Below are positions 6,337 to 58,671 of a DNA stretch of 64,000 bases, in pieces. A model generated the notes under the pieces. It made no database searches. It worked only from the letters and a program-made list of their open reading frames with translations, and was not told where the DNA came from. Source of the DNA: Candidatus Laterigemmans baculatus (GTDB taxonomy: Bacteria; Planctomycetota; Planctomycetia; Pirellulales; Pirellulaceae); assembly GCF_010367455.1 (NCBI RefSeq), contig NZ_WRPR01000042.1, forward strand, positions 124,001 to 188,000, given 5' to 3'. The position numbers and the translations under genes are program-made. Numbering within the stretch: the stretch's first letter is position 1; every line of letters begins with the position of its first letter.

Positions 6337-6341
6337 CCGCC

Positions 6342-12355: not shown

Positions 12356-12429
12356 GGGCGATTAGCTCAGTTGGTTAGAGCGCCACGTTGACATCGTGGA
12401 GGTCACAGATTCGAGTTCTGTATCGCCCA
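12356..12429 (+). tRNA. tRNA-Val (anticodon GAC)
   Basis: A cloverleaf can be drawn by eye. The acceptor GGGCGAT (12356-12362) pairs with ATCGCCC (12422-12428), followed by discriminator A. The D arm is GCTCAGTTGGTTAGAGC. The anticodon arm CCACG-TTGACAT-CGTGG has the GAC anticodon, and the T arm contains GATTCGAGTTC. CCA is not encoded. It marks the boundary between core genes on the left and accessory genes on the right, so it is a plausible integration target. Confidence 0.97.
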
Positions 12430-12470
12430 CTTTTAAATCCTTAAATACCAAGCACTTACGGCAATTCGGC

Positions 12471-41262: not shown

Positions 41263-41265
41263 TCT

Positions 41266-45946: not shown

Positions 45947-46054
45947 GATCCCCTCCTTGGGCATCTGTATTATACCTTTCACGCAATTTAGGCACAGTCC
46001 TTTTGCTAGTTTTTCTGCTTGTTGTCGTGCCTGACCCTCCCGGAGATCCCCGAC

Positions 46055-46110
46055 AGCCTCTTGTATATATTTACGTAGAACGCTAAGATTTCTGCTGCCG
46101 TATAAGAGGC
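46055..46110 (+). promoter_or_regulatory. Stem flush to the ribosome site of the first array gene
   Basis: GCCTCTTGTA (46055-46064) pairs with TATAAGAGGC (46101-46110) over ten positions with one G-U. AAGGAG starts at the next base (46111). The arms differ in sequence from the CACCTGTT elements downstream but the architecture is the same. Confidence 0.5.
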
Positions 46111-46122
46111 AAGGAGATCCAG

Positions 46123-46302
46123 ATGGCATGCGGACTGAATCCGCACATGAGCTGCACCCATGTGGACGGCAGCCTCATCCACGTGACGCACCGCCTGTCC
46201 GACCAGGAGTATCTTGGATGCGACGAGGATGGTGATTGGCGGGTTGTTCTGCGAGACGACCTGCAGGCATTCGCCGCGGTCGATCCCGATCCAGAAGTCT
46301 AG
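46123..46302 (+). CDS. Small acidic hypothetical protein, first gene of the array
   Basis: 59 residues, starting MACGLNPHMSCTHVDG and ending VDPDPEV. AAGGAG lies 6 bases before the ATG at 46123 and codon use is GC-rich at third positions. It contains CDEDGDWRVVL and many Asp residues. Unknown family. It is divergent from the polymerase-like gene (177-base gap), which probably contains both promoters. Confidence 0.6.
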   Translation: MACGLNPHMSCTHVDGSLIHVTHRLSDQEYLGCDEDGDWRVVLRDDLQAFAAVDPDPEV

Positions 46303-46526
46303 TGATGTTGCCCGCGGTAAGCCGCGACTCGTAGCTGATGGTGGGGTTCGGCGGATCCCGAGGGCAACTAGTCGGTTTGACCAGTTGAATACTCCTCTTC
46401 TTGGGAACGCGAGCCGGTGATCGTCTCTTGGTCGGCTGGTTCTTCCAGATTCCAGCGGAATAGCTGTCGTGTGCATGTTCACATGGGGGAGCTGGCAGCG
46501 GGCGAGGATGCCTATTTCGCCGGAAA

Positions 46527-46883
46527 ATGGAATCCGTTCTCGCGTCAACTGGTCAGTTTGACCGGTTGGCCGCTTCGATCCATCGACTTGGTTACCAGGT
46601 GTGGGATGCCGGAACACCGCTCGATCGCCTAGCTCTCTTCGAGGCGTCGACGGACCGCCCCCGATCCGCTCCTGTCATCGGCGTACGCGTTCTTGGACAA
46701 TCTCGTGAGACACGAGACCAGCCAGCCCTGCTTACCCTCCGGAAGCCATCGATCAGGCCGCTACAGCTTTTTTCAACTAAACGGTTCCATCAGCGGTGGC
46801 ATCCCGACTGGCCGACGCTCTGCTGCCCCCGATGCGACGGCCAGTCAAACTGCGACACCGGAACCCGGTCGATCACCTGTTAG
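46527..46883 (+). CDS. Possible hypothetical protein ending in a CACCTGTTAG element
   Basis: 118 residues. Codon use is plausible, and near the C-terminus CCPRCDGQSNC could bind zinc. Its stop codon is the TAG of the CACCTGTTAG element at 46874-46883, giving the C-terminal ITC, which parallels three other array genes ending NTC, DTC and NIC. The start is uncertain and an overlapping frame (46486-46632) cannot be excluded. The stretch 46303-46526 holds nothing else I can support. Confidence 0.4.
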   Translation: MESVLASTGQFDRLAASIHRLGYQVWDAGTPLDRLALFEASTDRPRSAPVIGVRVLGQSRETRDQPALLTLRKPSIRPLQLFSTKRFHQRWHPDWPTLCCPRCDGQSNCDTGTRSITC

Positions 46884-46932
46884 AGAAAGAAGAAATCCAC
46901 CACACGTGGATTCTTCTCATTTCCAGAACGGG
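46874..46932 (+). promoter_or_regulatory. CACCTGTT element 1 with SD-pairing arm
   Basis: CCTGTT (46876-46881) pairs with AACGGG (46927-46932) using one U-G. Inside, AGAAGAAATCCAC and GTGGATTCTTCT form a 12-pair stem with one bulge. The 3' arm is the ribosome site (AACGGGAAG) of the gene at 46942. Confidence 0.65.
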
Positions 46933-46941
46933 AAGTCAATC

Positions 46942-47142
46942 ATGTTCAGAGCAGTCGTCCGTCACGTCAATTGCACGATCACCACTCACCCGCTCGCCAC
47001 CCCAGAGGAAGCTAATGACCTTCTGGATGAGTTGGTGGTTTTGCCCCAGTTTTCCGGTGGTCATCTAGAAGAATTCATTCCAGAGATCGGCTGGGTCTGC
47101 TCGGCTCCCCAGGCGGCCAGGGCAAACTTCGGTGACTGCTGA
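46942..47142 (+). CDS. Small hypothetical protein
   Basis: 66 residues (MFRAVVRHVNCTITTHPLAT at the N-terminus). GGGAAG lies 8 bases before ATG 46942. It includes a Pro-Glu-Glu-Ala helix start and LLDELVVLPQFSGGHLEEF. No family recognised. Preceded by element 1. Confidence 0.55.
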   Translation: MFRAVVRHVNCTITTHPLATPEEANDLLDELVVLPQFSGGHLEEFIPEIGWVCSAPQAARANFGDC

Positions 47143-47398
47143 TCCGAGAGTCCCGGCGGCGATGCCTCTGGTGTCGGCGTAGGCGTTTCTCTTCGGTCAC
47201 ATGATAGTTGAGACATTCTGGCCGGTCGGCCGATTTCCGCCCCTGCCTACCCGCTGGATTCTGTGGCTTCCACTGTCGCCGACCAGAAACATTCGTGTCT
47301 CAAGAACGCTGTCTTTTATATTGATGCCGCCGCCGGTTGCGATATGGTCAGAACAGTCCGTCTCGAATCTCATGCGACGTTCATTTAGCTCGCTCAGA
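47143..47398. other. Intergenic; no gene supported
   Basis: About 255 bases between a small gene and the ArdC element. No start-supported frame. It may carry an internal promoter for ardC, but I cannot identify boxes. Confidence 0.4.
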
Positions 47399-47440
47399 CA
47401 CCTGTTAGTTGGGCATCAGTTGATCGCCCCGCGTAACAGG
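47399..47440 (+). promoter_or_regulatory. CACCTGTT element 2 with SD-pairing arm (before ardC)
   Basis: CCTGTTA (47401-47407) is the exact complement of TAACAGG (47434-47440); inside, GGGC pairs with GCCC. ACAGGAG in the 3' arm is the ribosome site for GTG 47450. Confidence 0.7.
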
Positions 47441-47449
47441 AGAGAGAAA

Positions 47450-48346
47450 GTGAAAAGCCAAAACGAGATTCGCGAAGAGATCACACAGCAGATCGTCGAC
47501 GCTCTGGAGGATGGCACGCTGCCGTGGCGGCGTAACTGGATCTGTGATGCGAACAGCGGAATTCCGGCGAGTTTGTCCACAAGCGTGCCATACAGGGGCA
47601 TCAACCAGATTCTTCTGTTGCTCGCTGGAATGAAACGCGATTTCCAAAGTCGGTGGTGGGGCACTTACAACCAAATACAGACCCTGGGCGGCCAGGTTCG
47701 CAAGGGGGAGAAGGGAACGAATGTTGTTCTATACAAAGCCGTACGAAAGAAGAAAAGCGAGCGGACCGGTGAGGAAAAAGACGACGTGTTTTTCATGATG
47801 CGGACCTTTCGCGTTTTCAATGCGGAGCAGGCAGACGGCCTGGAGAGATTCCAGATCGGGCACTCAAAAGCAGAATGGAGCGATATCGAGCGATTCGAGC
47901 ACGCAGATCGTGTGATTGAAGCTACTGGAGCTGAAATTCGCCACAGGGGAAACCAGCCCTGTTACGACACTCGCGAGGATGTGATTCGCCTGCCGTTTCC
48001 GCATCAATTTGCGTCGTCCGAGGCATACTATGCGACGGCATTCCATGAATTGATCCACTGGACTGAGCACCCGACTCGCCTGGACTGGGATCGAAAGAAC
48101 GAAGGGTATGCGATGGGTGAACTGATCGCGGAGCTGGGGGCGTGTTTCGTCCTTGGGCAACTGGGAATCGCGAACCCAGGCCTGGGCAACCATGCCGCGT
48201 ATCTGCAGAGTTGGCTGTCTGAAATGAAAAAAAACCCTCGGTTCATCTTCCAGGCTTCGTCCCAGGCCAGCAGAGCCGCTGAGTATATCCTCAATTTTTG
48301 CCCGATGGAGCAAGAGCGGGTCGAGGAGACCGCGGCCACCGCCTGA
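47450..48346 (+). CDS. ardC: ArdC-type antirestriction protein (ssDNA-binding, zincin-like)
   Basis: 298 residues from GTG 47450, which follows ACAGGAGAG; the longer upstream frame has no family match. The N-terminal ArdC_N domain (EEITQQIVDALEDGTLPWRRNW, PYRGINQILLLL, WWGTYNQIQTLGGQVRKGEKG) binds single-stranded DNA. The C-terminal zincin-like domain has the metalloprotease motif FHELIHWTEH, with a downstream Glu in ELIAELGACFVLG. ArdC proteins are delivered by plasmids and protect incoming single-stranded DNA from restriction. This places the array on a conjugative or mobilizable element. Confidence 0.92.
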   Translation: MKSQNEIREEITQQIVDALEDGTLPWRRNWICDANSGIPASLSTSVPYRGINQILLLLAGMKRDFQSRWWGTYNQIQTLGGQVRKGEKGTNVVLYKAVRKKKSERTGEEKDDVFFMMRTFRVFNAEQADGLERFQIGHSKAEWSDIERFEHADRVIEATGAEIRHRGNQPCYDTREDVIRLPFPHQFASSEAYYATAFHELIHWTEHPTRLDWDRKNEGYAMGELIAELGACFVLGQLGIANPGLGNHAAYLQSWLSEMKKNPRFIFQASSQASRAAEYILNFCPMEQERVEETAATA

Positions 48347-48380
48347 CGCCACTTGAGGGGCACGGAAGCCCTCCCGGCGA

Positions 48381-48425
48381 CACCTGTTAGTGGGCTGTTG
48401 CAATCGATCAGAGCCCGCTAATAGG
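48381..48425 (+). promoter_or_regulatory. CACCTGTT element 3, 14-pair hairpin over the SD
   Basis: CCTGTTAGTGGGCT (48383-48396) and AGCCCGCTAATAGG (48412-48425) form 14 pairs, two of them G-U, around a 15-base loop. The 3' arm ends in TAGGAG, the ribosome site of ATG 48433. Confidence 0.75.
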
Positions 48426-48432
48426 AGACACA

Positions 48433-49023
48433 ATGACCGCTCAAATCGGCGAATGGACGCTCGAAGACGCGGCCAAACAGGCCGCGGGCAACTGGCGGAA
48501 GTTCGAGAGCTTCGCCTGGTTCCGGCGTGACGACATAGATGACCCTGAAAACTGGGCGATCATTTACACGCACAACCGCGACAGCGGACTGCTCGATCAG
48601 AGCAACGCCGCCGCGATCGCGAAGGCTCTCGAACCATTCGAGGGCGATGTCGTCTTCGAAAGCCACTCCCACTGGGCAGTGGGATACGTGGACGGATTCT
48701 CTATTCGTGTTTTCAGCAATGGCGAGATTACGGACGCCTTTCGGCGATACCACGAGCTAAGCGAATCACTCGCAGATTACCCAGTTCTCGACGAGACGGA
48801 CTACTCGAGTCGAGAGTTGGAGGCGACACTTGTTAATATCGCCGACGCGATCTTCCAAGTAGAGGAAGAATACGAGCTTCCGGACCAGTGGGAGTCGGAA
48901 GTCTACCACTGGCTGTCGGACAACCGCCCATCCGCAATCGAGAATTGCGACGATTACGGCGGCTATCCCAGCGGCGAAGAGCTGAAAGCCGCGTTCGACG
49001 CCTTGGGATTCGCTCAGAAATAG
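48433..49023 (+). CDS. Acidic protein of a mobile-element family, unknown function
   Basis: 196 residues, strongly acidic. It has ENWAIIYTHNRDSGLLDQSN, VFESHSHWAVGYVDGFSIRVF and YPVLDETDYSSRELEATLVNI. I recognise these blocks as belonging to a family often seen on plasmids and integrative elements beside antirestriction genes, without an assigned role. High Asp/Glu content raises the possibility of DNA mimicry, which is inference. ATAGGAG precedes the ATG. A short GC-rich hairpin follows the stop (GGCTCTC..GGAGCC region). Confidence 0.7.
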   Translation: MTAQIGEWTLEDAAKQAAGNWRKFESFAWFRRDDIDDPENWAIIYTHNRDSGLLDQSNAAAIAKALEPFEGDVVFESHSHWAVGYVDGFSIRVFSNGEITDAFRRYHELSESLADYPVLDETDYSSRELEATLVNIADAIFQVEEEYELPDQWESEVYHWLSDNRPSAIENCDDYGGYPSGEELKAAFDALGFAQK

Positions 49024-49083
49024 CGGCTCTCTCAACTCAGGCGGCTCCCATCAACGGGAGCCGCCGTATCTGCCGAGTTCCAA

Positions 49084-49127
49084 CACCTGTTAAGCGGGCA
49101 CGATAACCCGCCCCCTCGGAGAAACAG
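49084..49127 (+). promoter_or_regulatory. CACCTGTT element 4
   Basis: CTGTT (49087-49091) pairs with AACAG (49123-49127); inside, GCGGG (49094-49098) pairs with CCCGC (49107-49111). The ribosome site GGAGA is in the internal loop, directly before ATG 49129. Confidence 0.6.
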
Positions 49128-49128
49128 C

Positions 49129-50031
49129 ATGGCCGATGACGTAACCCTCACAAGCCTCGCTAGAAAGCAGGAACTGCTGTCCCATCACGTGCGGTTGGTG
49201 GCACGAAAGCACAGTCATGCTCTCTTCGTATTCGGGGCCCAAGGCGGGCTTGGCAAGAGCCGCACGATCCTGCAAACGTTGAGCCAGGAAGGAATTGACC
49301 CGGTGCTGATCAACAGCCATGTCACTCCACTGGCACTCTTTGGGCTGCTATATGAACACCGCGAAGACGAGGTGATGTTTTTCGATGATGTGGACAGCAT
49401 GCTCAGCAGCATGGCCCACCTTGGCCTGCTGCGGTCTGCATTGTGGGGGAACCCGCGGACGGTAACGTACAACAGCTCTCAAGCTCCCGAGCACCTGCCC
49501 ACTAGCTTCGAATTCACAAGCCGCATCATTATCGCGGCGAATGTCATTCCGAAGAGAAATGACGCGTTCAATGCCGTTCTATCACGCTGCGACCAGTTCG
49601 AGCTTTCGGCGACGAACGACGAAGTAATCGAGCTGATGCGGGCAATTTCCGCCTATGGGTTCCAGAACCTCAGCATAGACGAATGCAGCTCGGTGATCGA
49701 TTACATCGACGAGAACTGCGGCGACCGGCAACTGTCGATGCGATTATTGACGCCGAGCCTGCGTAAGCTCCAGTATGCCCGCCAGGAGGGGCTCGACTGG
49801 AGGCCGATGGTAAAGAGCCAGCTTTCGACCCTCGGACGCAAGGGCACACCGGCGAAACGGCTCGACAATAAGTCTCGGGACCTCCGGGTGCTGCGAGAGG
49901 CGATCCGGCTACATCCCGACTCGGCCAAGGACCAGCAGGTCTACTGGTGCGGCAAAACGAGCAAGAGTAGAGCCAGTTTCTATCGCCTGCTTTCACGTCA
50001 CCGAGATGAGCTTGAGGCGAACACCTGTTAG
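49129..50031 (+). CDS. P-loop ATPase-like protein with C-terminal HTH, paralogue of 16298-17299
   Basis: 300 residues. Walker A is GAQGGLGKSRT (about residues 37-47), intact, unlike its paralogue. Walker B is VMFFDDVDSML, a sensor-like RIIIAANVIPKR follows, and LSRCDQFEL comes next. The C-terminal region (RLHPDSAKDQQVYWCGKTSKSRASFYRLLSRHRDEL) looks like an HTH with a SKSRASFYR recognition helix. The final codons ACC TGT TAG are part of the next CACCTGTTAG element. A role in plasmid maintenance or transfer is possible but unproven. Confidence 0.65.
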   Translation: MADDVTLTSLARKQELLSHHVRLVARKHSHALFVFGAQGGLGKSRTILQTLSQEGIDPVLINSHVTPLALFGLLYEHREDEVMFFDDVDSMLSSMAHLGLLRSALWGNPRTVTYNSSQAPEHLPTSFEFTSRIIIAANVIPKRNDAFNAVLSRCDQFELSATNDEVIELMRAISAYGFQNLSIDECSSVIDYIDENCGDRQLSMRLLTPSLRKLQYARQEGLDWRPMVKSQLSTLGRKGTPAKRLDNKSRDLRVLREAIRLHPDSAKDQQVYWCGKTSKSRASFYRLLSRHRDELEANTC

Positions 50032-50066
50032 GGCGTTGTAGCATTCACCACAACGGCAAGAACAGG
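50022..50066 (+). promoter_or_regulatory. CACCTGTT element 5
   Basis: CCTGTT (50024-50029) is the exact complement of AACAGG (50061-50066); inside, CGTTGT pairs with ACAACG. The TAG in the 5' arm is the stop codon of the preceding gene. ATG 50074 follows the 3' arm by 7 bases. Confidence 0.7.
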
Positions 50067-50073
50067 CTCAGTT

Positions 50074-50481
50074 ATGACGCAGATCACCGCGAGCGGCAGC
50101 TTTCACGGGCATGACCTTGAAGACCTTCCCGTTTTGAATCTCGGCGACTGGTTCGGGAAGACTTGGTTGATCGAAATCGGCGGAAGTTACTCGCCGCTTT
50201 TCTTGGTCGTCGAGGCCGACAGCTTCTGCTCCGCCATCGAAGAGCTGGCCGACAATGAGAAGTACGGCCACCTGATCACGGTGGCGGATGAGGATTTGGG
50301 CGATTACGACCCGAATGACTGCCATTACGGGCCAAGCGGGCAAATCCTGGAACTCGATCACATCATGATCCACGGCGACGAACAGAGCAAAATGCCGTGG
50401 CCGTGCCGCTATCACGGCGAAGGGCTGACGGAAGAGGGCGTGCTTCCCACTGCATTCGAGCATTGTGACGACACCTGTTAG
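50074..50481 (+). CDS. Acidic hypothetical protein
   Basis: 135 residues, rich in Asp/Glu. It contains DWFGKTWLIEIGGSYSPLFLVVEADSFCSAIEELAD and a C-terminal region with His and Cys (CHYGPSGQ, PWPCRYHGEG). Unrecognised by name but of the kind common in plasmid accessory arrays. Its last codons (GAC ACC TGT TAG) overlap the next element. Confidence 0.65.
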   Translation: MTQITASGSFHGHDLEDLPVLNLGDWFGKTWLIEIGGSYSPLFLVVEADSFCSAIEELADNEKYGHLITVADEDLGDYDPNDCHYGPSGQILELDHIMIHGDEQSKMPWPCRYHGEGLTEEGVLPTAFEHCDDTC

Positions 50482-50505
50482 TCGAATGAAACGACCTCGA
50501 ACAGG
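50472..50505 (+). promoter_or_regulatory. CACCTGTT element 6
   Basis: CCTGTT (50474-50479) complements AACAGG (50500-50505); GTCG pairs with CGAC inside. ACAGGAG in the 3' arm is the ribosome site for ATG 50514. The 5' TAG is the stop codon of the preceding gene. Confidence 0.7.
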
Positions 50506-50513
50506 AGAAGCCG

Positions 50514-50792
50514 ATGCCCGTAGCAAATTTCGAATTGGGCCAGATCGTGGCCACGCCGGGTGCCCTTGAAGCGTTGGCAAAGGCAGGCCGAACTGCCGCC
50601 GAACTCCTCAGCCGCCACGCCAGTGGCGACTGGGGGAGCGTGTGCGACGAGGACGGAGCAGCAAACGATAGTGCTCTTGAAGACGGCACAAGAATTCTCT
50701 CGGTCTACGAGCTGGCGAGCGAAGTAAAAGTCTGGGCAATCACCGAGGCAGATCGGAGTTCTACCTGCATCCTGCTGCCTGAGGAGTATTGA
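50514..50792 (+). CDS. Small mobile-element protein
   Basis: 92 residues. FELGQIVATPGALEALAKAGRTAAELLSRHASGDWG with a terminal VWAITEADRSSTCILLPEEY is a compact family that I recognise from plasmids and genomic islands, function unknown. ACAGGAG precedes ATG 50514. Confidence 0.8.
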   Translation: MPVANFELGQIVATPGALEALAKAGRTAAELLSRHASGDWGSVCDEDGAANDSALEDGTRILSVYELASEVKVWAITEADRSSTCILLPEEY

Positions 50793-50823
50793 CCAGCACC
50801 ATCTGGTTCTCGATGTCTCACCA

Positions 50824-50866
50824 CACCTGTTAGATCCGATGTAAGGCATCGAACATTCGAGACAGG
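50824..50866 (+). promoter_or_regulatory. CACCTGTT element 7
   Basis: CCTGT (50826-50830) pairs with ACAGG (50862-50866); CGATG and CATCG form an inner hairpin around TAAGG. ACAGGAG is the ribosome site for ATG 50875. Confidence 0.7.
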
Positions 50867-50874
50867 AGAGAACA

Positions 50875-51294
50875 ATGGGCTGGCTATTCTGCGACGGCTT
50901 CACACGGAAAGAGTTGATCGCCGACCGCACAAAAAGCTGGATGAGATCGCTTCCGGACGGTCAGGTTGTGCAAACGACCTGTCTCGCCCACTGCTATCGA
51001 GGTGCATCCTTTTCCGGTGTGCTGTGGGCGGTGTGGGAACGGACCTTCACGAGCGATGGCGAGGCCGTGGAACCGCCGCACCGTTGGATTACATGCGACC
51101 TACTGCGATACCAGCGGGACGCGTGGGGCTACAAAGACATGGATGAGTCCGTGCATCCCTATTTCTACTCATGCCCGCAGAAGTACTTGGCCTTGGTGCC
51201 GCTGGACGTTTATGGCGGCAACGCGGAATGGCGTGAGATTGTCCAGCAGCATCACGAGCGTCGGCGGCTGAAGCGACAAGCGAACATCTGTTAA
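50875..51294 (+). CDS. DUF6927-like mobile-element protein
   Basis: 139 residues beginning MGWLFCDGFTRKELIADRT, with TCLAHCYRGASFSGVLWAVWERTF, RWITCDLLRY, GYKDMDESVHPYFYSCP and YGGNAEWREIV. These blocks match a family common on plasmids and genomic islands (to my recollection DUF6927), without known function. The last codons (AAC ATC TGT TAA) overlap a variant element. An IS lies 13 bases after the stop. Confidence 0.8.
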   Translation: MGWLFCDGFTRKELIADRTKSWMRSLPDGQVVQTTCLAHCYRGASFSGVLWAVWERTFTSDGEAVEPPHRWITCDLLRYQRDAWGYKDMDESVHPYFYSCPQKYLALVPLDVYGGNAEWREIVQQHHERRRLKRQANIC

Positions 51295-51307
51295 TCACGT
51301 ATCACTA

Positions 51308-52263
51308 GGCTCTGTCTGAAAACCCTCGGCGGCACCGATTCGTACTGAATTCAGGTCAACTTGGTTCGTACGAGCACGGAGGAAACCGGTGGTACGTCGG
51401 CACTGTTTAACGGACGATCAATGGGAATTGGTTTCGGATCTTTTCGGGGAGCCAAAAGCAGTCGGGCGCCCGCCCAAGGACCGCCGACTGATTTTGGACG
51501 GCATTTTCTGGATACTCCGCACCGGAGCGGGCTGGCGTGATCTTCCTGAGCGTTTCGGCCCTTGGCAGTCGGTCTACCACTACTTCCGCGCGTGGACAGC
51601 CGATGGAACATTCGACGCAATTCTTCGCAGGCTGCAGGGGGCGATGGTCGATGCGGAAGAACTCGACGACGATCTGTGGTGTGTCGACGGCACAGTTGTC
51701 CGGGCGGCCCGCTGTGCCGCCGGGGCCAAAAAAGGGGGTCGGAAGGGTCAAATGCTAGCAATGAGGCGTTAGGACGTTCTCGCGGGGGTTTTAGCACAAA
51801 AATTCACCTGCTTTGCGATAGCCACGGACATCCGCTGACCGCGGTGCTTTCGCCCGGCCAGAGCCACGAATCGAAGTCGCTGAGCGAAGTGATGAAGCAA
51901 GTGGACGTGCATGGCACTGGCGATTCGATCCCAATCGTTCCGGCAAAGCTCGCTGGTGACAAAGGCTACCGCTACGACTGGATCGACAAGTGGTTGATCG
52001 ACGAGGGGATCACGCCGGTGATTCCGAGCAAACAAAATGAAGACCGGACGGCGCGCCCCGTCGAGTTCGACAAGCCGTCGTATCGAAAGCGCGCCATCAT
52101 TGAACAGTTGATCGGTTGGCTGAAAGAATGCCGCCGTGTAGCGACGCGATACGAGAAGCTGGCACGCCACTATCTCAGCATGGTTAAGCTGTCGATGATC
52201 GGACGCTACTTGCGACTGATTGCACCGGCAGATTCAAGGGTTTAGTAGTTTTCAGACAGAGCC
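51308..52263 (+). mobile_element. IS5-family insertion sequence (IS427-like group)
   Basis: 956 bases bounded by perfect 15-base inverted repeats: GGCTCTGTCTGAAAA (51308-51322) and TTTTCAGACAGAGCC (52249-52263). A TA target duplication flanks it (51306-51307 and 52264-52265). Length, ends and a two-frame transposase fit the IS427 group. It has landed between the stop and start codons of two array genes, in the intergenic element, without breaking either frame. Confidence 0.93.
51389..52245 (+). CDS. IS transposase made by -1 frameshift (two frames)
   Basis: The first frame runs from GTG 51389 to TAG 51770-51772 and holds the N-terminal domain (LTDDQWELVSDLFGEP, GRPPKDRRLILDGIFWILRTGAGWRDLPERFGPW). 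The second frame, -1 relative to it, runs to TAG 52243-52245. It carries the DDE core (STKIHLLCDSHGHPL, LAGDKGYRYDWIDKWLID, RAIIEQLIGWLKECRRVATRYEKLA). The slippery A AAA AAG lies at 51728-51734. This is the normal control of IS427-group transposases, so the element is probably intact. GGAGGAAAC precedes the GTG. Confidence 0.9.
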
Positions 52264-52293
52264 TAGTCCACACCACACACACTGGAGAGATGT

Positions 52294-52542
52294 ATGAACG
52301 ATCCGACTGAAACCATTCGCCGCGAGCAGGTCCGCAAGATTAACGCCGACCCCGGCAGCCGCGAGGCTCTTGAGGACAAGCACGGTCAGGTCTGGGACAC
52401 TGCTCAGCTCCAGCAGGACTTCGAGGTGACGGGGTTCGCAGCTCCGTACGTGATCGCACGTCGAAAAGCAGACGAGAAGCAGGGGTCGCTGATGTTCCAG
52501 CATTCGCCACGGTTCTACTTCCGCTTTGAACCAGCCGAGTAA
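52294..52542 (+). CDS. Small mobile-element protein, last gene of the array
   Basis: 82 residues. RREQVRKINADPGSREALEDKHGQVWDTAQLQQDFEV..GFAAPYVIARRK..GSLMFQHSPRFYF is a family that I recognise from plasmids and islands; function unknown. GGAGAG lies 5 bases before the ATG. It is followed by a strong hairpin at 52560-52592 that would end the array transcript. Confidence 0.8.
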   Translation: MNDPTETIRREQVRKINADPGSREALEDKHGQVWDTAQLQQDFEVTGFAAPYVIARRKADEKQGSLMFQHSPRFYFRFEPAE

Positions 52543-52559
52543 CTGCGGCAGGTGAGTGC

Positions 52560-52592
52560 AACGTCACGCTCCAAGGGAGGGAGCGTGACGTT
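52560..52592 (+). terminator. Terminator-like hairpin closing the array
   Basis: AACGTCACGCTCC and GGAGCGTGACGTT form a perfect 13-pair stem around a 7-base loop, 17 bases after the stop of the last array gene. The T tract is weak (TTCTT), so termination may be Rho-assisted. Confidence 0.7.
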
Positions 52593-52648
52593 CTTCGCGT
52601 CGGGCAACTTGTGTCGCAAAGATAAAAACCCGGAAATTTCGAGCGAAA

Positions 52649-52658
52649 CACCTGTTAG
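52649..52658 (+). repeat. CACCTGTT element 9, without a clear gene
   Basis: AACACCTGTTAG followed by GGGCAGGGCAGGG. No start-supported gene lies directly downstream before the recombinase. It could be the remnant of a lost array gene. Confidence 0.6.
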
Positions 52659-52957
52659 GGCAGGGCAGGGACGCCCCCCTGGCGGCTCTGCCACGGTTTC
52701 TTTTTGTATGCGTGACGACCGTTCTCGGCTGGACGCCTGGGTTTCAGCCCGAACCGATTTGCCAAAATCCGCGGCGTCAAAATTTCCGCCGTGCCCCAGG
52801 GTTTTCACGGCCCCTAAAACGCCGCCACCCGGTCCCCGAGGGTGACAAAAAGGATCTCCGTCTACTCGGCCCAAAATCGCGGCGTTTTTCCCAGCGTTTT
52901 CGCCCTCCCCGATTACGTCAAAAAGCCTTTACCCTAATTGTCACAAAGATCTGCCCC
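52659..52957. other. Recombinase upstream region with short repeats
   Basis: No supported gene. CAAAATC(C)GCGGCGT occurs near 52762 and again near 52875, and the inverse AAAACGCCGCC occurs near 52817. These lie just upstream of the serine recombinase and could be its res or crossover subsites. Confidence 0.4.
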
Positions 52958-53536
52958 ATGATCGCAGCATATTGCCGAGTTAGCACCGCCCAGCAAAAAG
53001 CCGATAGCCAAGTCGCAGAAATTCAGAAGTGGCTTAAGGCACATGGTTTCGACGAGAACCAGGTAGAGTGGTACATAGACAAGGAATCCGGAAAGTCGCT
53101 TCGGCGTCTAGAATTCCAGCGACTCCAGGCCGATATCTTCAGTGGCAGCGTGAGAACGGTAGTGTGCTGGAAGCTGGATCGGCTTTCACGCCGCCTGAGA
53201 GACGGCGTGACCCTCCTCGCCGACTGGTGCGAGCGAGATATTAAAGTGGTTGTCGTCACTCAACAGATAGAGCTTGGGGGGGCGGTGGGCCGCATGCTGG
53301 CTGCCCTGTTGCTTGGGCTTGCGGAAATCGAGCTGGAGTACCGCAGCCAGCGGCAGATGGCCGGGATCGAGGTCGCAAAAAAACGGGGCATCTACAAGGG
53401 GCGAGAGCGTGGCACGTTCAAGGCCGAGCCGAGACGGGCCGTCGAGCTGCGGTCCAGAGGCCTGAAAATCGCCGAGATCGCGACGGCATTGGGAACGAGT
53501 GCAAGAACGGTTCAGCGGTACTTGAGGGCAGGCTGA
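52958..53536 (+). CDS. Serine recombinase (resolvase/invertase type)
   Basis: 192 residues from ATG 52958. The catalytic N-terminal domain begins MIAAYCRVSTAQQKADSQ with the nucleophilic Ser in RVST. VVCWKLDRLSRRLRDGVTLL supplies the conserved Arg residues, and GGAVGRMLAALLLGLAEIE is the long dimer helix. The C-terminal HTH is LRSRGLKIAEIATALGTSARTVQRYL. Size fits small resolvases or invertases rather than large serine integrases. It may resolve multimers or move the element; candidate subsites lie upstream. Confidence 0.92.
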   Translation: MIAAYCRVSTAQQKADSQVAEIQKWLKAHGFDENQVEWYIDKESGKSLRRLEFQRLQADIFSGSVRTVVCWKLDRLSRRLRDGVTLLADWCERDIKVVVVTQQIELGGAVGRMLAALLLGLAEIELEYRSQRQMAGIEVAKKRGIYKGRERGTFKAEPRRAVELRSRGLKIAEIATALGTSARTVQRYLRAG

Positions 53537-53634
53537 TTGGCCGGTAATGTTCATTCCCCCCCATCAGCTATGGATCGCCGGACCGACGGTGCGGCCAAGT
53601 TAACTCCTTCTCTAGAAGACGCGTAGGCAACGAA

Positions 53635-54618
53635 TTGAATGGAAATAAGCTGAATGCCGCTGCAAATGCGAACGATCCGCAGAAGTCGGACTGGCCCGAT
53701 ACCGTCTATCATTACTGCGACCTCGGGGCGGCAGTATCCATTTTGCAGAACAAGCGGCTATGGGCAACTCATCTCCGCTACGTGAATGATTTTTCCGAGA
53801 TCGATTTCGGGCTTAGTCAGGCGTTCAAAGAGATTCAGGTGCTTCGAGCTGAGTTTCAAGGCGAAGCGATGGCCACAGTGTTTGTAAATGCCTGCGAAGA
53901 TGGGCTGAAGGACCACCAGTCGTGGCACTTTTATGCATGCTGCTTCTCACGAGAGAAAGATCTGCTGAGCCAGTGGCGTGCGTATGCGGACGATGGTGCG
54001 GGTGTGGCACTTGGATTTAGCACCAGACACCTTCAAGATTGCTGGATATCGAATTACGAGCTTCACCTTGCTGAAGATACATCGATTTGCAAGGTCAGCT
54101 ACGAGTTCGATCCTATTCGCCAGCTTCTCCGCGACCAACTGGGCACGCTCGATGCCCATCTTTCTTCACCGGCTGCCGACGACCAAGAGGCCTGCATCAA
54201 ATCGGGGCGGTTGGCGGCTGACCGGGTATTGAGGGCGTGTGCGGCTCACAAGTCGGCTGCTTTCGCTGAAGAAAAGGAGTATCGGCTGTTTGCCCAGCTC
54301 CGTCACATTGAGCAGCTTGGCAGCACGAAAAGTCCTGGTTCCTCTCCAGCAAGACCAGTCATTGCAGAAAACATATGGGACCAAATCGATAGGGCGATGC
54401 AGTCTAACCGGGCCGCGTGCCGACGTTATCGCATCGGCCGCTTTGGGATGACGCCTTATGTAGAGCTAGAGTTTCAGCCAATCTGCGTCCAAAAGATCAT
54501 TCTCGGCCCGCGTTGCAAATTTGTTCGGCAGGCGGAGGCAGTGCAAATGATGCTAGAAACGTTCGGCTACCCGACTGGCTCCGTCTCGATTGACCGATCG
54601 GCAGCCACCTATCAGTAG
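53635..54618 (+). CDS. DUF2971 family protein
   Basis: 327 residues from TTG 53635. The DUF2971 layout is clear: YHYCDLGAAVSILQNKRLWATHLRYVNDFSE at the N-terminus, FYACCFSREKDLLSQWRAYADDGAGVALGF, then FAEEKEYRLFAQL and IILGPRC. Members are widespread in accessory regions, sometimes in defence islands; the activity is unknown. The gene has no ACACCTGTTAG element before it, so it may be a separate acquisition. Confidence 0.8.
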   Translation: MNGNKLNAAANANDPQKSDWPDTVYHYCDLGAAVSILQNKRLWATHLRYVNDFSEIDFGLSQAFKEIQVLRAEFQGEAMATVFVNACEDGLKDHQSWHFYACCFSREKDLLSQWRAYADDGAGVALGFSTRHLQDCWISNYELHLAEDTSICKVSYEFDPIRQLLRDQLGTLDAHLSSPAADDQEACIKSGRLAADRVLRACAAHKSAAFAEEKEYRLFAQLRHIEQLGSTKSPGSSPARPVIAENIWDQIDRAMQSNRAACRRYRIGRFGMTPYVELEFQPICVQKIILGPRCKFVRQAEAVQMMLETFGYPTGSVSIDRSAATYQ

Positions 54619-54728
54619 CCTATGCCGACAGCCGCTGCTTCCGTAGAGAAGCAGGGGAGACCGGAAGATGGGCTAGAACATGGCAGGGCGTTTGAGAGCA
54701 TTCCCAGGCCTTCAGAATCTCCGAGAGA

Positions 54729-55277
54729 TTAGTCATCTCCACCAGCCGGTAGCCGATCGTCGGGATCCACGACCGCCGTCGCTGCCAACGCCTCGGCGAC
54801 ACCGCGAACCGCCGCCAACCGGACCACCAGAGACCCAGCCTCAAAGAATTCCTGGCTACAGAGCGTCAGCACTCGCGGATCGTCGACGACATCGGCGAGG
54901 ACGTAGAGTGCCCGCTCGCGACGCTCCAGTGGCAGGACTCGGTACTCCTCCAGGCAGACAGTCGCGTGCCGCAAATCACTGGTAATGCTGCACAACGCCG
55001 CCGACGCTAGAAATCGCGTCCATTCGTCGTCGCTAGCCAACAATCCCTGCAGGTGAGGATTCGCCGACGATACATCTATCTCACGCTCTGCGATGATCGG
55101 CAGGTATGCCAGTGCTTCGACCGCCGCCGGTCGCCGCTCTCCCTCCTCCAGGGCAGCGACCAGCCACTGGATGTCCGCCTGGTCCAGATCGGCGAGCCCT
55201 GATAGGACCCGTTCACGGTCGTCAGAGTCGACCGCAGCAATGCCATCTAGAAGCGTTTTCAGTCTGTGATCCGACAT
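54729..55277 (-). CDS. HEAT-like repeat protein
   Basis: 182 residues, all-helical, Ala/Leu/Asp-rich, with repeating pairs such as RPAAVEALAYLPIIAE, FLASAALCSITSDL and VVRLAAVRGVAEALA. It resembles the short HEAT or PBS-lyase repeat proteins. The gene at 55380-55721 is a shorter relative (compare VRMAAVALIAKGAPVA and IRRVAVEALMQRG). A CACCTGATT/AATCAGGTG pairing covers its ribosome site. Likely a protein-protein adaptor. Confidence 0.65.
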   Translation of the reverse strand: MSDHRLKTLLDGIAAVDSDDRERVLSGLADLDQADIQWLVAALEEGERRPAAVEALAYLPIIAEREIDVSSANPHLQGLLASDDEWTRFLASAALCSITSDLRHATVCLEEYRVLPLERRERALYVLADVVDDPRVLTLCSQEFFEAGSLVVRLAAVRGVAEALAATAVVDPDDRLPAGGDD

Positions 55278-55281
55278 TTTT

Positions 55282-55360
55282 CACCTGATTTTCGTGCGAG
55301 GGAGATCGTCTACCGGTTCGCCATAACAGGTGTTATTCCCGGGCGATCGCCAATCAGGTG
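55282..55360 (-). promoter_or_regulatory. CACCTG elements 10 and 11 before the HEAT-like gene
   Basis: On the minus strand CACCTGATT (55360-55352) is the exact complement of AATCAGGTG (55290-55282), which holds the ribosome site AGGTG four bases before ATG 55277. A second core copy, TAACACCTGTTA, lies between them (about 55323-55335). Compared with other copies, both arms have changed together (GTT to GATT, AAC to AATC). Confidence 0.7.
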
Positions 55361-55379
55361 TTGCCCGAATTTGGGGACA

Positions 55380-55721
55380 TTAAAATCGCGGCAAGATCAC
55401 CCCACGTTGCATCAGTGCCTCTACGGCGACTCTGCGAATTTCCAAATTTTCATCCGCCGCGGCGGCGAGCATCACCGGCAGTGCACGGAGATCGGCAACG
55501 GGGGCTCCCTTTGCGATCAGTGCGACAGCCGCCATCCGGACCGCTTCATCCTCTGCATTGAAGAACTCGTGGGCAATCGCGGTCAGCACGCCGGGCTCGT
55601 CCCAATTGATCTTGGACATCTCCAGGCTAGCCAACTCGCTGATCGCCTCCCGCCTCTCCGTTTCGCTGGCCCCCGGAGCGGTAAGCCGATTGATTATCCA
55701 CCTCGCCAAGAGTTTTGACAT
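55380..55721 (-). CDS. Short HEAT-like repeat protein
   Basis: 113 residues from MSKLLARWIINRL at 55721; a longer upstream reading would run through the regulatory element. Helical pairs include GVLTAIAHEFFNAEDEAVRMAAVALIAKG and LEIRRVAVEALMQRGV. It is related to the gene at 54729-55277, the next gene on this strand, so the pair probably arose by duplication. AGTAGGTG five bases before the ATG is the ribosome site. Confidence 0.6.
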   Translation of the reverse strand: MSKLLARWIINRLTAPGASETERREAISELASLEMSKINWDEPGVLTAIAHEFFNAEDEAVRMAAVALIAKGAPVADLRALPVMLAAAADENLEIRRVAVEALMQRGVILPRF

Positions 55722-55725
55722 GTCC

Positions 55726-55772
55726 CACCTACTCTTTGCGTGGAAAGAATCTATGACTACGCATAGCAGGTG
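55726..55772 (-). promoter_or_regulatory. CACCTG element 12 before the short HEAT-like gene
   Basis: On the minus strand CACCTGCT (55772-55765) pairs with AGTAGGTG (55733-55726) over eight positions, one G-U. The 3' arm is the ribosome site of ATG 55721. The last two bases of the 5' arm differ from other copies and the 3' arm differs to match. Confidence 0.7.
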
Positions 55773-55868
55773 TAAAATCCCCCCGGTTAAAGTTCTCCGC
55801 TTTGCGGATGGCACATGTCTCTTTCGCCGCCGGTCCCGGTCAGCCCTGTTTCCGGCTCGCCCGCGGAG

Positions 55869-56594
55869 CTAGCCGAGACGGTCTGACCGCCTTCGCTCCG
55901 CGGCGATGTCATTGTCCCAGAAGTCCCCTTGGCTCCGCCAATCCACTCGTTCGGGCTCGGGCGAAATAAGCAGTTGGCCGCACCGGAAACAGGGCCGGTC
56001 GTCCACCGGATTGTTCGATCCACAGTTGTTGCAAACCACTGGCCGCCCGCCGTACGGGCCGGACGTGTCAGGGGTGAGGTCAACTTCAAACTTTGGGTAG
56101 TGCTCCCTCCGACTCTTAGTCATGTATTTAACTGCGTTAGAATCGGATGTAAGGAATGGGGACACGATGTCGTCCCAATAAATGCTGTACCCATCTGCCT
56201 CGGCGTCCCTCAGCCACGCAAGATAGTCCGGATCTCCATCAAGTGTCGCCAACATGAACGGGCGAGACACGATGTGTGCCAGCCAGCCAAAGCCAAGAAC
56301 AACGGGGCAGCCAAGGAAGGGTACCGCCACCGCCAGCAGGAAAGCGTCCAGGAAAATAGGATCAACAAGAAAATGAAACAGCCCGAGAAGCAGCATCAAC
56401 GGGACCAGACAAACAAGAATCAGTCGAAGCAACATGTAGTGCCTCGGAGTCCTGCCGTTTCGATGTTCCTTGTGGAAAATGATCAGGGTAGCGAAAATAG
56501 TGATCGATAGCCAGAGCATCTGATATTCGCCGGTTCTGGAGGCCAGTATAAAAATTGGCAGCAGAAAGATACCTTTGGTAAACAAGTAATTCAT
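55869..56594 (-). CDS. Membrane protein with C-terminal zinc ribbon
   Basis: 241 residues. About four TM helices lie in the first 120 residues (YLFTKGIFLLPIFILAS, MLWLSITIFATLIIF, LRLILVCLVPLMLLLGLFHFLV, AFLLAVAVPFLGCPVVLGFGWLA). A cytoplasmic tail ends in a CxxC..CxxC zinc ribbon (CNNCGSNNPVDDRPCFRCG). No family recognised. AACGAGAAAG precedes the ATG. It has no CACCTG element close upstream. Confidence 0.65.
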   Translation of the reverse strand: MNYLFTKGIFLLPIFILASRTGEYQMLWLSITIFATLIIFHKEHRNGRTPRHYMLLRLILVCLVPLMLLLGLFHFLVDPIFLDAFLLAVAVPFLGCPVVLGFGWLAHIVSRPFMLATLDGDPDYLAWLRDAEADGYSIYWDDIVSPFLTSDSNAVKYMTKSRREHYPKFEVDLTPDTSGPYGGRPVVCNNCGSNNPVDDRPCFRCGQLLISPEPERVDWRSQGDFWDNDIAAERRRSDRLG

Positions 56595-56780
56595 TGCTTT
56601 CTCGTTGGTTGCAAACGGTCGACGTAAATAGTGTCCACTGCAACGTTGGCGGGTCCAACTCCATGCACTTGAGTGTCCACCGGTCGCTCGTGTGTGGCCG
56701 TCGGTCGGGAGGCAGCCCCGGATTAGATTGAGCAGGTCCGAACCCTGCTTCCGCGGGTGGAATTGCTCTGCAGCTTCCGC

Positions 56781-56790
56781 CTAACAGGTG
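56781..56790 (-). repeat. CACCTGTTAG element 13 (orphan)
   Basis: On the minus strand AACACCTGTTAG, the consensus core with the dyad AACA-CC-TGTT. No supported gene follows. Confidence 0.6.
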
Positions 56791-56971
56791 TTGCTTGTTC
56801 CGAATACCAGCCGCCCGAGAGAATCCGAAGCGTTATAGGCACCGATAGAGCAGGAGTCCCGCTAGCAGTTGCTTCTGAAGTGCTGCTGCTCAACCGGCCA
56901 GGCACAGCGGCTCGCCGATTCCGGTGCCCCTGCTCGCTACCCGCCGGGCCGATGGCCGAACCGAACCTCTT

Positions 56972-56981
56972 CTAACAGGTG
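56972..56981 (-). repeat. CACCTGTTAG element 14 (orphan)
   Basis: On the minus strand ACACCTGTTAG followed by AAGAGGTTCGG. No supported gene follows. It is the last copy seen to the right. Confidence 0.6.
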
Positions 56982-57069
56982 TCGTCTTAACCGTCGTGCA
57001 TCGCACGCCTGATGAAGGCGATCAAATCCGACGCTTGCCTCTGCCCGCCGAACGGGGGATAATCGAAGG

Positions 57070-57402
57070 ATGCACCGGGGCAGCAGCCCCACACCCATGA
57101 TCGACGCGACCGCCAGCATGAACAAAACGCCTGAAGAGCTGAGCCAAGCAGAGGTGCACCGTATCTGCGGCGTGCTCGGAGGCATCGTGGACCGGTGCGA
57201 GCTCACCGAATCTGAGGTCGAGGCGATGGAGCACGCTGCGATCGCCATAATGGCGGTCAACATAGGGCGAGCCAGTCAGCGGGCGTATGCCTCGCTCATG
57301 AACGCCCACAATGGCTGCATATCTCAGTCGGTGATGGCAGGCCTGAGAGCCCGCGGGATCGACGTTGACGCACTGGAATCTGACACTGGTACTGCTGGCT
57401 GA
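57070..57402 (+). CDS. Hypothetical protein
   Basis: 110 residues; ATG 57070 follows GAAGG, with alternatives at 57097 and 57118 (MNKTPEELSQAEVHR). Helical, with ELTESEVEAMEHAAIAIMAVN and a C-terminal MAGLRARGIDVDAL. No family recognised. First of a row of short plus-strand genes. Confidence 0.5.
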   Translation: MHRGSSPTPMIDATASMNKTPEELSQAEVHRICGVLGGIVDRCELTESEVEAMEHAAIAIMAVNIGRASQRAYASLMNAHNGCISQSVMAGLRARGIDVDALESDTGTAG

Positions 57403-57442
57403 AAAATCGGGGCGGCGTCAGCACCTCGTATTTGCGATTTGC

Positions 57443-57634
57443 GTGACAAACTTTCTAGACTCAGCGGATCTGTTCGCCGCCTTTGTTCTTTCAATCATAC
57501 CGGCACTGACCTTCGTGCTTGCCGTCACAATTTTGATCAGTCAAACGCGTCGGTACCTGACCGCGATGCGTCACACCGGGCACCATCATCCTGAGCTGCC
57601 TGTCGCGGAGCCCGAAAGCGAGAATGGCGAGTGA
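57443..57634 (+). CDS. Possible single-TM small protein
   Basis: 63 residues from GTG 57443. It has one long TM helix (LFAAFVLSIIPALTFVLAVTILIS) and a charged, His-rich tail. The frame is open further upstream into the previous gene. No clear ribosome site, so this is tentative. The gap 57635-57892 holds nothing supported. Confidence 0.35.
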   Translation: MTNFLDSADLFAAFVLSIIPALTFVLAVTILISQTRRYLTAMRHTGHHHPELPVAEPESENGE

Positions 57635-58606: not shown

Positions 58607-58671
58607 AGTGTGGTTCAGTCGGTCCCTGCAATCGCTTCCAAATCAGCATCGAGACTTTTTGCCGATCTCAA

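Follow-up and report, generated by a model that had tools for sequence, protein, structure and literature searches.

A short sequence stands before gene after gene in a 10-kb array within the 64-kb stretch of DNA analysed here (hereafter the window), which raises the question of what such an element does and whether it acts as DNA or as RNA. A sequence-only reading had listed 14 copies of its core and had proposed a shared RNA switch that hides ribosome sites, with a DNA operator as an alternative. All 14 copies were recovered when the window was searched, and those of the array are linked to genes and oriented with them, as had been described. The core CACCTGTTAG occurs exactly nine times in the window, at 46874, 47399, 48381, 50022, 50472, 50824 and 52649 on the plus strand and at 56781-56790 and 56972-56981 on the minus strand. 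Two copies have one mismatch (49084, plus; 55323-55332, minus), and the copies named at 51285 (plus), 55351-55360 (minus) and 55763-55772 (minus) have two. The claim that the window holds no other copy is valid at 0-1 mismatches, where 11 of 11 matches fall inside the array, but not at two mismatches: that search returned 40 matches against a shuffle mean of 30.8, and since 40 was reached in 6 of 100 shuffles, the total is uninformative. Within the genome, all eight exact copies of ACACCTGTTAG and 10 of the 11 exact copies of ACACCTGTTA (5.76 Mb searched) lie in the window array. A covariance model built for the window element (R1) found no match outside the window's own genome among 392 genomes of the phylum under strict filters, and a single weak one (E 0.28) among the first ten related loci, so the window's own core is private. 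The elements, genes and island end that the argument needs are as follows.

12385..12431, plus: left copy of a 47-bp direct repeat, the 3′ part of tRNA-Val 12356-12430
46873..46936, plus: element 1, TCACCTGTTAG with hairpin leader, before a 66-aa ORF starting at 46942
47398..47449, plus: element 2 and leader of ardC (GTG at 47450)
47450..48346, plus: ardC, ArdC N domain (ArdcN) and zincin-like domain (MPTase-PolyVal)
48380..48432, plus: element 3 and leader of gene 48433
48433..49023, plus: conserved array gene without function by annotation, in 12 of 27 arrays
49083..49128, plus: element 4 and leader of gene 49129, with the weakest core-ribosome-site pairing
49129..50031, plus: putative ATPase (by eye; phrog_1250), type S backbone, in 13 of 27 arrays
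50021..50073, plus: element 5 with the leader of gene 50074; its TAG serves as stop codon of gene 49129-50031
50074..50481, plus: conserved array gene, in 15 of 27 arrays
50471..50513, plus: element 6 with the leader of gene 50514; its TAG serves as stop codon of gene 50074-50481
50514..50792, plus: conserved array gene, in 27 of 27 arrays
50823..50874, plus: element 7 and leader of gene 50875
50875..51294, plus: conserved array gene, in 18 of 27 arrays
51284..51304, plus: element 8, ACATCTGTTAA; contains the stop TAA of gene 50875-51294
52294..52542, plus: conserved array gene, the bait for finding related loci
52648..52658, plus: core copy 310 bp upstream of the serine recombinase, no clear leader
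52958..53536, plus: small serine recombinase, Resolvase domain
55279..55333, minus: element and leader of gene 55277
55723..55773, minus: element and leader of gene 55721, with HEAT-like product
56744..56791, minus: core copy lying about 200 nt ahead of the start of gene 56594
56972..56982, minus: outermost core copy, not directly followed by a gene

The array lies on an island flanked by the 47-bp repeat of the tRNA-Val end, the right copy of which lies at the contig position corresponding to 71444-71490 in window numbering, beside an integrase-like gene. The leader of gene 52294 is interrupted by an insertion sequence of about 0.95 kb (about 51305-52265) with an IS4/5-type transposase domain (PF13340), and the serine recombinase is the sole match of that protein in the genome. 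A degenerate second core, ending at 55360 (minus), was also noticed near the element of gene 55277. Searches of plasmids by tblastn with proteins 48433 and 50074 gave no match.

Arrays of this kind were found in 30 of 51 loci (the window and L130-L179; the other 21 showed no clear enrichment or were too short), with 196 gene-linked elements and 3 to 15 per locus, three of the 30 loci holding only three. Four double-counted starts in L155 have been removed from an earlier total of 200, which the stem counts and some pairing counts below still use. The arrays are a homologous family on small mobile islands of planctomycetes built around the anti-restriction gene ardC, which is present in 26 of the 27 with at least four elements. 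Each array has its own core, ACACCTGTTAG in the window and ACACCGGCAAG, ACACCCGCAA or GCACCTGCTA in others, although motifs were chosen per locus after enrichment had been seen, so that uniformity within an array is partly by construction. Three genomes (G238, G350 and G595) each carry arrays with well-defined different cores, and G644 would be a fourth, provided that the weak GGACC core of L144 is counted. The 12-mer AGGCACCTGCTA has 10, 16, 17 and 20 copies in four genomes, compared with 0-4 for the reversed pattern. In three of these genomes the copies are confined to a single contig, and the fourth has them in two clusters on its one contig. Such differences between islands, even in one genome, look like a private on/off code for each island.

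Within one mobile element, the same sequence stands upstream of ardC and of several other genes. The core is shared by genes that lie outside the main cluster: divergent genes upstream of ardC carry it in L157, L161, L179 and L171, as do convergent genes downstream in L157 and L179 and, in the window, at 55277 and 55721. The element is not found on every array gene: for instance, it precedes 23 of 28 ardC members and 9 of 16 members of the 50074 family, as well as 6 of 13 serine recombinases and 2 of 13 tyrosine recombinases. The core is kept between arrays that differ in a gene: L131, L153 and L160 form a 100/100 clade that does not include the ardC of L138, yet this ardC is preceded by their core.

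The core is followed by a second block at a fixed spacing. Of 170 elements (24 loci; L130, L135, L144, L154, L152 and L155 left out), 100 have a YRT triplet whose first base is exactly 16 nt from that of the core, whereas no other offset from 11 to 39 accounts for more than 16 elements, and 2000 rounds of shuffling gave a mean of 9 and a maximum of 22. In the GGACC arrays the triplet lies at 17-18, in the GTACC arrays none was seen, and the window array is the weakest in this respect (three of eight elements). The distance from core to start codon is 46-56 nt in 163 of the 196 elements, with a median of 52, starts having been sought only at 38-75 nt from the core. The leader in between is poor in G: in the other arrays (158 elements, one duplicate included, the window left out) G makes up 2-13% at positions -30 to -17, compared with 14-36% in 78 control genes taken from these loci.

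We consider it about an even chance that the element is a transcription-control site for individual genes (a promoter, or a promoter with an operator) in an establishment regulon private to the island. According to this model, an integrative island carrying ardC would bear, ahead of many of its genes and about 52 nt from the start codon, a bipartite site made of a core of about 11 bp and a YRT that begins 16 nt from where the core begins; next would come an untranslated leader, poor in G and rich in A and C, ending in a Shine-Dalgarno sequence. A putative island-specific factor would read the variable middle of the core, so that the genes of the island would be switched jointly, plausibly upon entry into a new cell and with no crossing with other islands in the genome; in the window's own array, the leaders would additionally fold back on the core. 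The linkage to genes, their orientation and spacing, the cores specific to each array, the homology between arrays and the module boundaries close to the core are observed; action on DNA, control of transcription, expression tied to entry and the private factor are what we infer. The DNA site proposed as an alternative in the sequence-only reading suits the family better than the RNA switch, the second block standing at one strict spacing and the cores being island-private; the dyad ACA-CC-TGT on which that proposal had leaned is not shared by the homologous cores. A more far-reaching version, which seems unlikely, is an orthogonal addressing code, in which the leader of about 52 nt would be a standard plug-in unit and some four core letters would name the island; an island-encoded factor of unrecognised type would read them, several islands per genome would run separate regulons, and captured genes would be re-addressed at the exchange joint by the core of the receiving host island.

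The model has a likeness in the pLS20 family of plasmids, in which establishment genes including ardC are reported to share upstream regulatory sequences of two unrelated types, EGeRS1 and EGeRS2 (PMC8708921). As described there, these are conserved upstream of ardC and other putative establishment genes or operons and form the element's own regulon, different plasmids using one type or the other; EGeRS1 is 400-600 bp long with many inverted repeats and EGeRS2 comprises a promoter and a repressor operator, and both precede operons (PMC8708921). In contrast, the island element spans about 52 nt, precedes single genes and has a strict two-block core. Cluster K mycobacteriophages also have short repeats just upstream of some non-structural genes, namely the 13-bp SAS, located at the translation start, and ESAS, an imperfect inverted repeat of 17 bp whose consensus varies between subclusters, and their function in these phages is given as unknown (PMC3203893). 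Unlike these, the core studied here is asymmetric, stands some 52 nt upstream and belongs to chromosomal islands; the 13-bp SAS, GGGATAGGAGCCC, was found near the start codon in none of the 196 leaders, with up to two mismatches allowed.

A search for the reader of the core revealed no sigma factor, RNA polymerase or other clear candidate among the scanned array proteins (Pfam; NCBIfam for window proteins only), the lone hint being a sub-threshold match resembling sigma-70 region 4 at the helix-turn-helix end of the serine recombinase. To our knowledge, the distance between core and YRT matches no sigma-70, ECF or sigma-54 promoter. The serine recombinase itself was judged an unlikely reader because recombinase type and core are not linked; L132/L164 and L134/L137/L162 have one core type but different recombinases. 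The protein encoded at 44591-46129 has, by eye, stretches like the motifs of T7-like RNA polymerases. Such a polymerase was set aside as reader, no homologue of this protein having been found beside the arrays then examined, and a single-sequence structure model of it was useless (mean pLDDT 33). The conserved protein 50514 has a confidently predicted fold (pLDDT 92.4), for which Foldseek gave no match with E ≤0.001; in a second look at structure matches the best ones reached Z 4.9, many of them RelE/HigB-type toxins. Nothing convincing came from comparing profiles of 50514 and 52294 with solved structures. An antisense small RNA from the reverse core copy just upstream of the first element in L157, L161, L179 and L171 was also rejected, since this copy heads the divergent gene there (in this search the consensus of L155, and less so those of L144 and L152, was too weak, and their rows were ignored). 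The pattern core...ACAGGAG occurred in 21 stretches of viral contigs and 23 of genome contigs, with a single match in each stretch; the one inspected together with its ORFs (L045) is phage coding sequence, and the others were taken as chance from their number and isolation.

Instead of a DNA site, core and leader might act in the mRNA, where a protein or a small RNA would bind them or a hairpin would mask the ribosome site, and control translation gene by gene; this generalised form of the sequence-only proposal we regard as unlikely. The near-constant distance to the start codon would suit such an element, and in the window array the pairing is real: the core can pair with the ribosome site in seven of eight elements (runs of at least 6, GU allowed), compared with 25 of 188 when it is set against the ribosome sites of other arrays. 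The summed longest pairing run is 54, above all 2000 dinucleotide-keeping shuffles (mean 41.6, maximum 52), and 85.7% of cells are paired, compared with 37-53% after sliding the 3′ partner by 1-3 columns. Element 49084 is the weakest, with a tested run of only 4 and five pairs (CTGTT/AACAG) by eye. Leaders also fold more stably in the window array (mean z -2.6, n = 7) than elsewhere (-1.25, n = 174).

The proposed switch is supported in part; as a mechanism shared by the family, however, it is not supported. Among the elements of four homologous arrays whose core, GCACCTGCTA, is nearly identical, only 5 of 38 can form this pairing (GU allowed; 4% expected with foreign ribosome sites); a core kept while its partner is lost is the outcome that the sequence-only reading had itself named as refuting. 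The covariance analysis it had proposed did not demonstrate covariation, since the observed score was reached in 69 of 500 shuffles of the 3′ letters and a single pair had changes on both of its sides, in a single sequence. With no fold common to the leaders, a strict distance from core to YRT is more typical of recognition as DNA, and Rfam gave only two matches in 44000-60000 (E 0.69 and 0.7), far below the gathering scores. When Watson-Crick pairs alone are counted, four of eight window elements pair, and in the other 29 loci together 12 of 192 do so against about 3 expected from permuted fractions, which indicates a weak pairing tendency outside the window array. Stems of any kind of at least 6 bp at the ribosome site are absent from 160 of 200 elements; the 40 that have them exceed the roughly 5% expected and are concentrated in particular genes (11 of 23 for ardC, 4 of 9 for gene 50074), so RNA structure may be an added layer.

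The arrays may also be compared with cluster A mycobacteriophages, whose stoperators, as described for L5 and TipsytheTRex, are more than 20 asymmetric sites oriented with transcription, located in promoters and short intergenic spaces and bound by the element's own repressor (PMC9283540). The array cores are likewise asymmetric, oriented with transcription, located in short intergenic spaces and present in many copies per element, and they too are island-specific with conserved and variable positions; they differ in their near-fixed distance to the start codon and their distant second block. That an island repressor binds them, halts transcription and confers island-specific immunity is distinctly unlikely in our view: a roadblock needs neither a near-constant distance to the start codon nor a G-poor leader, and no repressor gene, including the element-encoded two-domain monomeric type, was recognised among the scanned array proteins, which are part of the island genes.

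Module boundaries lie near the core, and units of core, leader and gene could accordingly be cassettes of a non-integron system, exchanged by recombination at the core through an island serine or tyrosine recombinase or through homologous recombination. When arrays that belong to the same core group are aligned, 58 of the 70 alignment starts counted fall at core offsets -7 to -1, and 8 of the 18 ends counted fall at +10 (pairs taken in both directions; only ends with equal offset in both loci, from -40 to +60 of the core). In 59 of the 135 cases in which an upstream stop was traced, it ends no more than 5 nt before or 1 nt after the beginning of the core. Many arrays include a recombinase and an ATPase, which is RuvB-like in type Y. 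But a leader inherited along with its gene yields the same boundaries, and recombinase type and core are not linked, which leaves this reading very unlikely. In integron cassette arrays, attC sites carry 5′ RYYYAAC and 3′ GTTRRRY. The island arrays resemble them in being built of modules of one gene each, joined at a conserved element and often near a recombinase; unlike in integrons, the recombinase type varies independently of the element, that of the window cluster being a serine recombinase, and the attC order RYYYAAC...GTTRRRY occurs in none of the 196 leaders plus 30 nt upstream. A further likeness is to the PeSL of T4-type phages, reportedly described by Arbiol et al. in 2010 as mobile regulatory cassettes of lytic phages with a promoter and a terminator stem-loop, in that a repeated intergenic regulatory cassette is tied to modular shuffling of small genes; in contrast to that reported design, terminator-like hairpins were seen in the islands only before certain genes.

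Finally, a host-wide promoter type or a motif enriched by chance is extremely improbable: CACC-type cores are short and the two-mismatch search alone is not significant, but the cores cluster in islands and differ between arrays of one genome, and in five genomes a looser bipartite pattern gave 1-7 matches per genome against 1-6 for the reversed control, with no genome-wide enrichment.

If the reading as a transcription-control site holds, these islands would represent a natural set of parallel, non-crossing regulons built on one scaffold in about thirty planctomycete loci, and would show private control of accessory genes in integrative elements. Establishment genes, both anti-restriction genes and their neighbours of unknown function, would then be recognisable by the leader alone, which would also provide a searchable handle for the missing regulator.

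All 14 copies of the repeated core (approximately 11 bp) that the sequence-only reading had listed between 46874 and 56981 were found at their positions, nine of them exact, two with one mismatch and three with two. All 11 matches with at most one mismatch in the 64-kb window fall within this array, whereas two-mismatch matches number 40 in the window, a count reached by 6 of 100 shuffles; the weight of the finding thus rests on the near-exact copies. Across the whole genome (5.76 Mb), the array contains all eight exact copies of ACACCTGTTAG and 10 of the 11 exact copies of ACACCTGTTA. An IS4/5-type insertion (approximately 51305-52265) splits the leader of gene 52294 directly after the core ACATCTGTTAA (genes are named here by their start coordinates in the window).

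The array is part of an integrated island of approximately 59 kb on a 300-kb contig, because a 47-bp direct repeat corresponding to the 3′ part of tRNA-Val lies on both sides (12385-12431 and window-equivalent 71444-71490), together with an integrase-like gene. Besides the array, BREX genes and a cyclase-4TM effector pair lie on the island:

L055 (fetched locus) 5837-7363, minus strand: integrase-like gene, 508 aa, adjoining the right 47-bp repeat copy; sole Pfam match an integrase SAM-like domain, slightly under the curated cut-off
Window 30241-34956, plus strand: BREX PglX ORF, 1571 aa, whose end (approximately 1189-1567) matches candidate defence family PDC-M25A, both parts forming a fused protein in a single frame
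Window 40399-42162, plus strand: oligonucleotide cyclase, then a 4TM effector-like gene, a CBASS-like pair directly after BrxL
Window 44591-46129, minus strand: 512-aa protein with, by eye, polymerase-palm-like motifs (NIDIANSQP, TIHDSIMT); the sole Pfam match is weak (Rep_1, E 0.0078), and a search of the first related loci turned up no relative

The sequence-only reading had proposed a shared RNA switch based on pairing between the core and a segment at or next to the ribosome site (the Shine-Dalgarno region of the leader). In its nine gene-linked copies, this pairing lies above all 2000 dinucleotide-keeping shuffles, with 85.7% of cells paired versus 37-53% when the partners are slid. Of the eight elements in the window's array, four have Watson-Crick runs of at least six between core and ribosome site, where foreign ribosome sites would give 7%; with GU allowed, 7 of 8 pair, and the window's core pairs with 25 of 188 ribosome sites taken from other arrays. 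The window's leaders, which by eye are folded and GC-richer, have a mean folding z of -2.6 (n = 7) versus -1.25 in other arrays (n = 174; Mann-Whitney p 0.016; leaders longer than 62 nt excluded). Covariation as such is not shown, since its score is matched by 69 of 500 shuffles of the 3′ letters; a two-sided change is seen in one pair of one sequence among the nine copies.

A model of the window's hairpins had no match in the remaining 391 genomes sampled from the phylum, and relatives were therefore sought through the 82-aa cargo protein of 52294-52542. This protein is matched in 8 of the 392 genomes sampled for the phylum and in 42 of the 397 for the class, both counts including the genome of the window. 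The stretches around 50 matches were retrieved for comparison. Of the 51 loci, the window among them, 30 yielded arrays, defined by k-mers enriched 36-62 nt before starts, and 21 yielded none; three of the 30 hold just three elements. Many loci have in common ardC and relatives of 48433, 50074, 50514, 50875 and 52294, to which type S, that of the window, adds an ATPase like 49129 and a serine recombinase, and type Y a RuvB-like ATPase, an AlpA-like gene and a tyrosine recombinase (L158 is a mixture of the two, and neither is seen in L140). Of the 27 arrays with at least four elements, all 27 contain 50514, 26 contain ardC, 18 contain 50875 and 15 contain 50074, the presence of 52294 in all 27 being an outcome of its selection as bait.

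L135 5357-6313: RuvB-like ATPase (RuvB_N, RuvB_C), with relatives in 12 of the 27 arrays, mostly alongside a tyrosine recombinase

A 52294 relative is also found on viral contig L092 (1-10620), where a palindromic element, CTCAACAC-TAAACGTTGAG, occurs in 10 copies plus one variant, mostly directly before ribosome sites; the design is as in the arrays and the core is unrelated.

Core types include ACACCTGTTAG (window), ACACCGGCAAG, ACACCCGCAA, GCACCTGCTA, GCACCCCCTAG, GGACCA, GTACC and others, GGACCA and GTACC being the least sharply defined. The most frequent frame is R-C-A-C-C followed by four variable letters and A, then G in many arrays. Since the motif was picked locus by locus after enrichment had been seen, core uniformity is partly built in, and the evidence is the number of separate pre-start places with an identical word: 10 for GGCACCC (L139), 14 for GGCACC (L159), 8 for AGGACAC (L131) and 8 for CACCCGC (L133). 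The element stands ahead of ardC in 23 of 28 cases, and of 48433 (12/12), 50875 (16/18), 50514 (20/27), 52294 (22/28), 50074 (9/16), 49129 (8/13), serine recombinases (6/13) and tyrosine recombinases (2/13).

Of 196 elements, 163 have the core 46-56 nt before the start; the median is 52 nt, starts having been sought at 38-75 nt only. Of 135 traceable upstream ORFs, 59 have a stop that ends between 5 nt ahead of the core start and 1 nt past it, and in 6 the stop overlaps the core. A second block, the triplet Y-R-T, played no part in choosing elements. In RCACC-type arrays, it starts exactly 16 nt from the core start in 100 of 170 elements (partly non-independent, as orthologous genes recur across arrays) and at any other offset from 11 to 39 in 0-16 of them; in 2000 rounds of shuffling, the leaders averaged 9 and never exceeded 22. 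It occurs at +16 across different genes of one array (6/10 in L139, 7/8 in L173), is weak there in the window's array (3/8) and L170 (1/5), and is displaced to 17-18 in GGACC arrays; none was seen in GTACC arrays. From -30 to -17 relative to the start, G content is 2-13% in 158 leaders from other arrays (one duplicate; the window's own excluded) versus 14-36% in 78 genes from the same loci that served as controls.

While the pairing holds in the window's array, the RNA switch lacks support as a mechanism common to the homologous arrays: in four GCACCTGCTA arrays, core and ribosome site pair in 5 of 38 elements (GU allowed; foreign sites 4%), three of the five belonging to 50875, so that the core is retained where its partner is mostly absent. 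Across the other 29 loci, Watson-Crick runs of at least six occur in 12 of 192 elements versus approximately 3 expected from permuted fractions. Counting every stem that links positions 6-28 to the ribosome region over 6 bp or more, 40 of 200 elements have one versus 5% expected, and since this excess is concentrated in particular genes (ardC 11/23, 50074 4/9, 50514 5/20, one small gene family 3/6), leader folding is a genuine but gene-by-gene extra layer. The ardC leaders of L132, L134, L133, L139, L157, L179, L173 and others bear a ribosome-site hairpin whose arms differ yet match (GCCGTC/GACGGC, GTCGTT/AACGAC, GTCGTC/GACGAC), which suggests translational control of ardC itself. In 50875 leaders of L132, L134, L137, L162, L164, L133 and L148, a terminator-like hairpin, beginning approximately 8-10 nt into the element, lies between core and ribosome site.

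Each island appears to use its own core. Genes just outside the main cluster also bear the array's core: in L157, L161, L179 and L171 these are divergent genes, not the same ones throughout, on the upstream side of ardC, and L157 and L179 additionally have convergent ones downstream (window counterparts 55277 and 55721). The 12-mer AGGCACCTGCTA has 10, 16, 17 and 20 copies in four genomes versus 0-4 for the reversed pattern, confined to one contig in three genomes and forming two clusters on the single contig of the fourth. Genomes G238, G350 and G595 each contain arrays with different well-defined cores, as does G644 provided that the weak L144 core is accepted. Trees of ardC, 50514, 52294, 49129 and 50875 conflict in places, with many forks open; L138 shares its core and other genes with L131, L153 and L160, yet its ardC, preceded by that core, lies outside the 100/100 clade formed by those three. 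Within one core group, 58 of the 70 alignment starts that were counted lie at offsets -7 to -1 relative to the core (the two loci had to agree in offset, and every pair entered twice).

The most economical reading is that the element is a putative DNA site controlling transcription gene by gene. Each gene would then have perhaps 25-30 nt of untranslated leader, and the reader of the site would be something island-specific. Among the array proteins scanned, no reader of the core was identified; for the serine recombinase helix-turn-helix as a sigma-like reader, the sigma-70 region 4-like match was sub-threshold and is not counted as evidence. The spacing of core and Y-R-T is not known to match any promoter class.

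Among the matches listed, no description of the element appeared in literature on planctomycete ardC or mobile elements, on cassette or junction promoters, or on planctomycete intergenic motifs or integrative elements, subscription journals being mostly outside coverage. In published work, ardC and other early genes of pLS20-family plasmids have common upstream sequences, and related plasmids of this family employ unrelated types (PMC8708921); when the recipient cell is a restricting host, conjugation into it requires R388 ArdC there (PMC7213743); and one element can bear more than 20 oriented asymmetric stoperators for its own repressor (PMC9283540). These precedents do not prove a function for the element of the planctomycete arrays. 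The likeness to the establishment regulons of pLS20-family plasmids is one of design. The known kinds to which the element comes closest are element-private establishment regulons or start-associated repeats.
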